Of a stretch of DNA of 64,000 nt, positions 50,458 to 51,586 are shown one piece after another. The stretch is from Natrinema amylolyticum (GTDB lineage Archaea > Halobacteriota > Halobacteria > Halobacteriales > Natrialbaceae): assembly GCF_020515625.1 (NCBI RefSeq), contig NZ_JAIWPJ010000001.1, forward strand, positions 1,488,001-1,552,000, given 5' to 3'. The notes beneath the pieces are model-generated. The model did not search any database. It was given only the letters and a program-made list of their open reading frames with translations, and had not been told where the DNA came from. Every line of letters starts with the position of its first letter. Within the stretch, counting starts at the first letter, position 1. The position numbers were made by a program, and so were the translations under genes.

Positions 50458-50484
50458 ACGACGGACGCGGCTATGATGACCTGA

Positions 50485-50565
50485 GCCAGGATGGCCGAAT
50501 GGTAAGGCGCACGCCTGGAAAGCGTGTTCCCTTTGGGATTCAGGGTTCAAATCCCTGTCCTGGCG
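50485..50565 (+). tRNA. tRNA-Ser (anticodon GGA)
   Basis: 81 nt. The acceptor stem GCCAGGA pairs with TCCTGGC and the discriminator base is G. The D-arm contains GGCCGAATGGTAAGGC. The anticodon stem CACGC/GCGTG encloses the loop CTGGAAA (anticodon GGA, reading UCC/UCU). A long variable arm (TTCCCTTTGGGATTC) marks a class II serine tRNA, and the T-arm is AGGG-TTCAAAT-CCCT. No intron; CCA is not encoded. T5 follows directly. Its 3' part is copied twice downstream. Confidence 0.95.
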
Positions 50566-50704
50566 TTTTTGCCGAAATCGACCGACGAGCGGAGCGAGTC
50601 GCGATTTCGGTGAAACGCGAACGAAGGAATTTGAATCAGACCAGTCGCAGCGCTGAGCGAAGCGAGGCGATCGTCTGGGCGTGGTTCAAATCCCTGTCCT
50701 GGCG
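50566..50704 (+). repeat. Tandem unit 1: hairpins ending in a copy of the tRNA-Ser 3' end
   Basis: Starts with TTTTT after the tRNA, then an inverted repeat CCGAAATCG/CGATTTCGG (about 50571-50612). It then has GAATTTGAATCAGAC...GTCTG...GTTCAAATCC, where the last part is the tRNA T-arm and acceptor strand (GTTCAAATCCC...TCCTGGCG, 50684-50704), identical over 21 nt to 50545-50565. The 5' arm of the second hairpin is therefore complementary to the tRNA T-arm. No coding sequence. Confidence 0.85.
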
Positions 50705-50828
50705 TTTTCTGTCGCGAGCAATCCGCGAGCGACGAAAACCCAATAAGGGGATTTGAACACGCGAGTCGCACGCGGTCGAACGGAGTGAGGCCGACCGTCT
50801 CGTATCTGTTCAAATCCCTGTCCTGGCG
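50705..50828 (+). repeat. Tandem unit 2: hairpins ending in a second copy of the tRNA-Ser 3' end
   Basis: Same plan as unit 1 with different filler: TTTT, inverted repeat GTCGC/GCGAC (about 50710-50734), then GGGATTTGAAC (about 50747-50757) exactly complementary to GTTCAAATCCC in the final copy (50808-50828, again 21 nt identical to the tRNA end). Units are 139 and 124 nt long. This suggests repeated att-type events at the tRNA or a repeated RNA element. Confidence 0.85.
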
Positions 50829-50829
50829 G

Positions 50830-50907
50830 ATACCGTCACTGTAAGTCAGTGAACACATTCGCCGCGACTGCGCGGCGAATGCGTGTAACCGTTACAGTTG
50901 ACGGTAT
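50830..50907. repeat. 78-bp imperfect palindrome next to the tRNA-end array
   Basis: Left arm ATACCGTCA-CTGTAA...ACAC-ATTCGCCGCG and right arm CGCGGCGAAT-GC-GTGT...TTACAG-TTGACGGTAT meet around a central ACTG. Outer 8 bp (ATACCGTC/GACGGTAT) and inner 10 bp (ATTCGCCGCG/CGCGGCGAAT) are perfect. It begins one base after the last tRNA 3'-end copy. It could be a non-autonomous element end, a recombination site or a strong RNA hairpin. The stretch to 51016 has no gene. Confidence 0.8.
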
Positions 50908-51016
50908 ATTCTGTCGCCAACACCGTGAGCAACGGATAGCTTCCGGATGGCCGACTCGCGACCCAGCATCGGCCACTATCGATCCGACAGGGAGACGGAT
51001 CCTCGAGTGCGCGACA

Positions 51017-51535
51017 TCATCGGCGGTCCTCGGCGTGTTCGGCGACGCGTTCGTCGATCTGCTCGTCGAGATCGCCGATTTCTTCCTCGACCTGCGCTCG
51101 AACTTCATCGCCGATCCGGTCGTCGACCTCGTCGCCGACCTGCTGTTCGACCTCGGCGGCGACTTCATCTTCGACTCGTTCTTCGACTTCCGCCGCGACT
51201 TCGTCCGCGACCTGGTCGTCGAGTTCGGCAGCGACCTCGTCCGCAACTTGGTCATCGACTTCCGCCGCGACCTCGTCTGCGACCTGTTCGTCGACTTCCG
51301 CTGCGACCTGCGTCTCGGCCTCTCGAGAGACCATCTCTTCGAGGAGCCGCTCGTAGATGGTCATTTTCTCCCAGATTCGAAGCAGGTAGCCGACGACGAG
51401 TCCGCCCTCGAACGCCGCGATCCGCGGGTCGACGCGGAACGCGAGGACTGCGAAGCCGGCGATGAAGAGCAATCCGTACACCAACTCGATGTGGAACTGC
51501 GTCTGCTTCCCCTGAAATCGACTTCGAACTGCCAT
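51017..51535 (-). CDS. Membrane-anchored coiled-coil protein with 12-residue repeats
   Basis: 172 residues from MAVRSRFQGKQTQFHIELVY. One or two N-terminal helices (LVYGLLFIAGFAVLAFRVDP and FEGGLVVGYLLRIWEKMT) lead into about 110 residues made of imperfect 12-residue repeats of the type QVADEVAAEVDD (at least six, visible in the DNA as 36-bp repeats). They should form a long, strongly acidic amphipathic helix or coiled coil. The end is DLDEQIDERVAEHAEDRR. No homologue recognised; it may act as a spacer or tether at the membrane. It sits beside the tRNA-end array and the palindrome. Confidence 0.7.
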   Translation of the reverse strand: MAVRSRFQGKQTQFHIELVYGLLFIAGFAVLAFRVDPRIAAFEGGLVVGYLLRIWEKMTIYERLLEEMVSREAETQVAAEVDEQVADEVAAEVDDQVADEVAAELDDQVADEVAAEVEERVEDEVAAEVEQQVGDEVDDRIGDEVRAQVEEEIGDLDEQIDERVAEHAEDRR

Positions 51536-51586
51536 CGAACCACCCCTACTAGCTGTTCTCATCGAGCGGGCAAAAACGTGGCCGCC

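Follow-up and report, generated by a model that had tools for sequence, protein, structure and literature searches.

A tandem array behind haloarchaeal tRNA-Ser(GGA) as one of many tRNA-anchored hairpin cassette arrays that may spread by T-loop recombination

Introduction

Why should the 3′ end of a tRNA gene be repeated directly behind the gene itself? In the window, by which we mean the whole 64,000-nt stretch of DNA analyzed here, the final 21 nt of tRNA-Ser(GGA), GTTCAAATCCCTGTCCTGGCG, recur without a mismatch at 50684-50704 and 50808-50828, exactly as a preliminary description had stated. By simple arithmetic, the chance of even one exact 21-nt match within 300 nt is about 1e-10. That description had offered repeated integration and excision by an integrase as one explanation and had favored a dedicated element that copies, mimics, or targets the tRNA end. 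We therefore asked how the array is built, where else its plan occurs, and which process could have produced it.

Results

Anatomy of the array

The tail copies are spaced by 139 and 124 nt, and folding bore out the earlier reading of each unit as a T-run plus two hairpins: a T-run with hairpin 1 is followed by a short linker and then by hairpin 2 (Table 1). In the predicted fold of hairpin 2, the 3′ arm is the T-loop of the tail copy and the 5′ arm is its complement. The T-arm-complementary segment that had been described before each copy is indeed present, imperfect in unit 1 and, in unit 2, part of an inverted pair that is perfect over 12 nt (50748-50759 and 50807-50818). Only two GAGCGNAGYGAG motifs occur in the 64 kb, both of them inside this array, and the only known RNA family that reaches its gathering score in the array region is the tRNA itself. 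Tail copy 2 is not the last feature here; behind it come a palindrome and what is probably the decayed form of a hairpin 1.

Table 1. Features of the tRNA-Ser(GGA) array in window coordinates
Feature	Position	Strand	Basis
tRNA-Ser(GGA), anchor gene	50485-50565	+	ARAGORN; Rfam RF00005, 63.2 bits
tRNA-Ser(GGA) positions 53-73	50545-50565	+	part of the anchor gene
Unit 1 T-run and hairpin 1, TTTTTGCCGAAATCG...CGATTTCGGTGAAA, apical GAGCGGAGCGAG	50566-50615	+	inverted repeat I12, fold, motif
Unit 1 anti-T arm GGAATTTGAA, imperfect, one extra A	50626-50635	+	sequence
Unit 1 hairpin-2 body, TCAGACCAG...CTGGGCGTG with GAGCGAAGCGAG	50636-50683	+	folds (class hp2c), motif
Tail copy 1, tRNA positions 53-73 repeated with 21/21 identity	50684-50704	+	sequence identity
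Unit 2 T-run and hairpin 1 (TTTTCTGTCGCGAGCAATCCGCGAGCGACGAAAA)	50705-50739	+	fold; type recurs behind other tRNAs
Unit 2 anti-T arm GGGGATTTGAAC	50747-50758	+	inverted repeat I13, 12/12
Unit 2 hairpin-2 body, ACGCGAGTCGCACGCGGTCGAACGGAGTGAGGCCGACCGTCTCGTATCT	50759-50807	+	class hp2b, common to 11 orthologous units
Tail copy 2, tRNA positions 53-73 repeated with 21/21 identity	50808-50828	+	sequence identity
Palindromic MITE-like element after the last tail; marker common to relatives	50829-50909	.	inverted repeat I9; relatives
Hairpin 1, probably decayed, from an older unit (TTCTGTCGCCAACACCGTGAGCAACGG)	50910-50938	+	comparison with relatives; inferred

The MITE-like palindrome reads GATACCGTCACTGTAAGTCAGTG...CAGTTGACGGTATA and lies at the same place in the related loci L009, L015, L024, L026-L028, and L035. 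Farther downstream, an ORF on the minus strand (51017-51562) encodes degenerate 12-residue repeats (EVDDQVADEVAAE-like) that probably form a coiled coil.

Distribution within genomes

As an account of the locus, the preliminary description of an array stood; as a local feature it did not, as the plan is found genome-wide and order-wide. We located tRNA genes with RF00005 and searched the DNA downstream of each for its own tail, so that tail copies were sought near tRNAs and, in addition, in selected stretches of the genome. With up to 6 mismatches and a spacer below 220 nt allowed, about 17 of the 45 tRNA genes in this genome are followed by at least one unit (one or two of them possibly by chance), and a few additional tRNAs have truncated copies. 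The corresponding figure in G115, a genome of a different and distant family, is 22 of 43 (up to 5 mismatches, spacer below 450 nt). In the two haloarchaea that were fully checked, arrays thus follow about 40-50% of the tRNA genes, and elsewhere in the order cassettes were seen at single loci.

In both genomes, a tRNA may be followed by one to five cassettes of about 70-175 nt, a few being longer; tRNA-Val(TAC) of this genome has four clear units and tRNA-Ser(TGA) of G115 has up to five. Each copy is the end of the tRNA that precedes it, beginning at G53 of the T-loop and covering positions 53-73. The hairpin-1 type of unit 2 is also found behind other tRNAs, and the other genomic matches of the tRNA-Ser(GGA) array lie near tRNA genes with one exception, a displaced Gly(TCC) array. 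This recurrence of the plan behind many tRNAs, each unit having its own tRNA's tail and usually a matching anti-T arm, supports the earlier suggestion that a dedicated element is linked to the tRNA end and that ordinary integration does not account for it.

Taxonomic range

The search of other haloarchaea that had been proposed as a check was positive: of about 81 Halobacteriales genomes sampled, 64 contain the strict pattern GGATTTGAAN{25,55}GTTCAAATCC, about 312 other genomes from the phylum gave no match to it, and a reversed-pattern control matched nowhere. A wider scan of 84,980 prokaryote species with the pattern GGGATTCGAAN{25,55}GTTCGAATCCC returned at least 119 stretches. Among the 119 matches listed, 96 lie behind a tRNA in the sense orientation, 10 correspond to tandem tRNA genes of bacteria, and the other 13 lack a tRNA in reach, several of these being at the edge of the fetched stretch; 64 of the copies listed are identical at 20 of 20 positions to the tail of the preceding tRNA. 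Bacterial equivalents were considered and rejected, the listed bacterial matches being either tandem tRNA genes of the Rhodanobacter/Dyella type, in which the pattern contains a tRNA-Pro call, or solitary matches lacking a tRNA.

Carriage by viruses was likewise rejected: 22 viral stretches match the pattern, and a haloarchaeal array was recognized in none of them. Separately, the viral contigs L240, L243, L248, L250, L253, and L255 hold near-perfect palindromes with arms of 17-23 nt that contain tRNA T-arm sequence (GGATTTGAACCGTGGACCTCTGG...CCAGAGGTCCACGGTTCAAATCC), and one palindrome of this L240-L255 set overlaps a tRNA-Gln call. Two haloarchaeal hairpin-2 elements with full T-loop arms, L146:1922-1980 and L144:4736-4797, have no sense tRNA call directly upstream and are possibly orphan or moved units.

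Comparison with integrase att sites

The array could in principle consist of scars left by ordinary tRNA-targeting integrative elements, that is, of simple att sites. The copies span the T-loop to the tRNA 3′ end, as some att sites do; archaeal tyrosine-recombinase att sites also repeat the 3′ portion of a tRNA and leave the tRNA intact, and haloarchaeal elements are known to integrate at tRNA genes (PMC3119063; PMC8371274). This genome offers a direct comparison, as its PF00589 positions place integrases next to tRNA-Gly(TCC), Val(CAC), and Val(GAC). The att repeats at these tRNAs measure 41, 27, and 28 nt, respectively, lie 13.2, 1.8, and 3.0 kb away, all reach upstream of G53, and flank gene-bearing elements. 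Array units, in contrast, are short and tandem and have added inverted arms, whose tRNA specificity is not explained by integrases. No integrase gene was found between the array copies, and spacers of about 70-175 nt are too short to hold one. Moreover, at L094:13350-13500, an array unit of tRNA-Gly(TCC) lies displaced beyond the att repeat of the integrated element, which suggests that the array is older than the element. The integrase explanation put forward at the outset is hence not supported in that form, and we regard simple att scars as highly improbable and nearly excluded.

Arms, bodies, and strand of the hairpins

In 65 of 82 units, the copy has an anti-T-loop 15-75 nt ahead of it; when spacers are shuffled, the figure is 5%. 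The arm tracks base 57 of the tRNA, an A being answered by T in the arm and a G by C (25/2 versus 1/8 with one unit per gene; Fisher P = 1.3e-5), and for His (TTCGATT, TTCAATT) and Val (TTCGAAC) the arms of most units match. The match to the T-stem is weaker, at 2.97 of 5 versus 2.67 in permutations for all units, and for this genome alone it lies inside the permutation range.

The bodies of hairpin 2 share the motif GARC-N3/4-GYGA, which is present in 46 of 91 (1.0 expected; 0 for the reverse complement), and a GNA loop was found in 36 hairpin-2 bodies with this motif. The tRNA-sense strand folds better in 63 of 82 units, compared with 47 of 82 after shuffling. Shuffles and the reversed-pattern controls rule out chance palindromes; bulge-helix-bulge splicing sites and kink-turns were set aside by eye, as their geometry does not fit. 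In its modeled fold, hairpin 2 could accommodate tandem G-A pairs together with a GNA triloop. Such elements are stable in DNA as well as in RNA, so a folded RNA and a folded single-stranded DNA look the same at the level of sequence.

This strand bias is what would be expected if the units were transcribed trailer RNAs with a role in the host, as proposed for the RtT RNA of Escherichia coli. Read-through of the tRNA would give a structured RNA whose anti-T arm may mask the tail copies and leave tRNA folding undisturbed; alternatively, the read-through RNA might titrate or regulate tRNA processing. In addition to the placement of both structure and motif on the tRNA-sense strand, every unit stands behind a tRNA in sense with the T-run repeated, and the E. 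coli tyrT repeats share the plan and are annotated as sRNA. In Haloferax mediterranei, 12 of 88 reported sRNAs adjoin tRNA genes (PMC5852579), a possible lead on transcription. Against a trailer RNA, about half of the tRNAs have no units, and two further objections come from the comparison of relatives.

Gain, loss, and exchange of units

At the orthologous tRNA-Ser loci of the genus there are 0, 1, or 2 units, and among close relatives the units behind a given tRNA vary in number, type, and order. The DNA after the last tail of occupied loci is the DNA found directly after the tRNA of empty loci, a boundary shared by L018 and L023 and by L024 with L015, L027, and L010. Among relatives, whole units are gained or lost at a fixed boundary. 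Hairpin modules are also shared and recombined between units and between tRNAs: in a four-species alignment the same hairpin 2 is preceded by four different hairpins 1, with an extra unit on the tRNA side in two species, and in G115 tRNA-Pro and tRNA-Ser are followed by one and the same 39-nt hairpin-2 body. Among arrays of at least two units, the first copy is nearer to the tRNA sequence than the last in 17, equal in 12, and worse in 3 (P = 0.003). Copies thus tend to decay with distance from the tRNA, and this polarity is moderate.

The helices of orthologous units showed 27 G-T and 22 A-C states and hence no clean excess of G-U over A-C of the kind that would point to selection on RNA; with the two about equal, helix decay after birth seems to favor neither strand. 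Both this result and the variation in unit number, type, and order among close relatives speak against trailer RNAs, a reading that we consider unlikely.

A passive origin would dispense with dedicated machinery altogether. Tandem duplication and template switching at the T-loop would build the array, and hairpin-templated correction would match the arms. The 21-nt direct repeats promote both gain and loss, and repeat-mediated deletions have been reported in Haloquadratum (PMC3119063). Two units of tRNA-Ser(TGA) in G115 are a block duplication, indicating that ordinary tandem duplication contributes, and correction within the palindrome could let the anti-T arms follow the tRNA. A process of this kind does not readily explain the confinement to Halobacteriales, given its absence from about 312 other genomes of the phylum, nor the difference of both hairpins between units of one array, nor the occurrence of the same sense-strand motif in distant families. 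We judge a passive origin unlikely.

Discussion

A cassette model

The reading that we prefer, tentatively and with slightly less than even confidence, treats the array as one instance of a large haloarchaeal set of tRNA-anchored hairpin cassettes, which would spread by recombining at the T-loop. A cassette comprises the T-run with hairpin 1, the linker, and hairpin 2, behind which comes the 3′ end of the tRNA, positions 53-73; of the two arms of hairpin 2, one repeats the tRNA T-loop directly and the other in inverted form. A new cassette would enter beside the tRNA, with recombination joining at the T-loop at about G53/T54; the tRNA would retain an intact 3′ end, and the old end would be pushed downstream as a tail copy. 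The recognized structure may be hairpin 2 of the sense strand, in which the T-loop arm is paired with a guide-like anti-T arm, and a putative recombinase or transposase would be the recognizer. The logic would be that of att or attC sites, minus the genes.

The anatomy, the own-tRNA tails, the tracking arms, the fixed boundary, the exchange of modules, and the moderate polarity are observed parts of this reading, and equal G-T and A-C decay would be expected if structure matters at birth and not later. Several points weigh against the entry of cassettes. We linked no recombinase or transposase to the arrays and saw neither an excised form nor an insertion in progress. Gain is indistinguishable from loss by recombination between the 21-nt direct repeats, the polarity could stem from conversion with the tRNA, the sense-strand structure suits RNA equally well, and the block duplication at Ser(TGA) of G115 shows another route. 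More doubtful still, and rather unlikely, is a class-wide, gene-less cassette system that has the tRNA T-loop as its integration site, in which a candidate recombinase reads folded sense-strand hairpins with a guide-like anti-T arm and polar arrays accumulate. Were this so, essential RNA genes would be the foundation of a system resembling integrons.

Whichever process is at work, the arrays look like a widespread, unnamed system of tRNA-anchored repeats. We found no description of the haloarchaeal arrays in the open-access full-text literature; most subscription journals lie outside this coverage, and an earlier description may exist there. One design is repeated in them many times over in nature, with arms that match and arms that do not, and in organisms amenable to genetics, which makes mechanism and function directly testable. 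They may also confuse tRNA annotation and searches for att sites.

Relation to known systems

Integron attC arrays are made of tandem units with a foldable site whose outer arms pair and with a G-TT junction, and their folding is strand-specific. The haloarchaeal arrays may be likened to them in their tandem, foldable units, pairing arms, G-TT junction, and apparent strand-specific folding. Unlike integron cassettes, they have no genes and are anchored at a tRNA rather than at attI, and where attC has the boxes R′ GTTRRRY and R″ RYYYAAC the haloarchaeal copies read GTTCRAA.

Elements of the IS200/IS605 type have ends in which the 5′ foot of a hairpin bears a short complement to the target or cleavage site; they insert without target duplication and use contacts of 4-5 nt. 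Their ends and non-autonomous derivatives resemble the array units, by analogy, in the complementary 5′ foot and in having two hairpins per unit. The lack of target duplication and the 4-5-nt contacts set them apart from the arrays, to which no transposase is tied.

The closest known system is the RtT repeats of E. coli tyrT (RF00391, rttR), which follow the same plan at one locus. At tyrTV, three distal 178-nt repeats each close with the 19 nt that run from T-loop to CCA in tRNA-Tyr, and carry upstream GGGGAAGGAT, which is complementary to the copied stretch and has a matching feature in the haloarchaeal units. This RtT feature, tandem units ending in a tRNA 3′ end with an upstream complement, is present in the array of the window. 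The RF00391 model gave four matches in E. coli K-12, used as a positive control, the fourth being in the tyrT-tyrV spacer, and none in 50480-50960 of the window at E values up to 1. The two systems differ in that RtT is seen at the single tyrTV locus in K-12, whereas haloarchaeal units occur behind about 40-50% of tRNA genes, encode no CCA, and have tRNA-specific arms. The long-known and unexplained tyrT repeats hence gain a second and far larger example. In the E. coli K-12 tyrTV stretch (L114), the RtT repeats hold an inverted piece of the tRNA end, and they contain a GAGCGCCAGCGAG motif that resembles that of the haloarchaeal hairpins.
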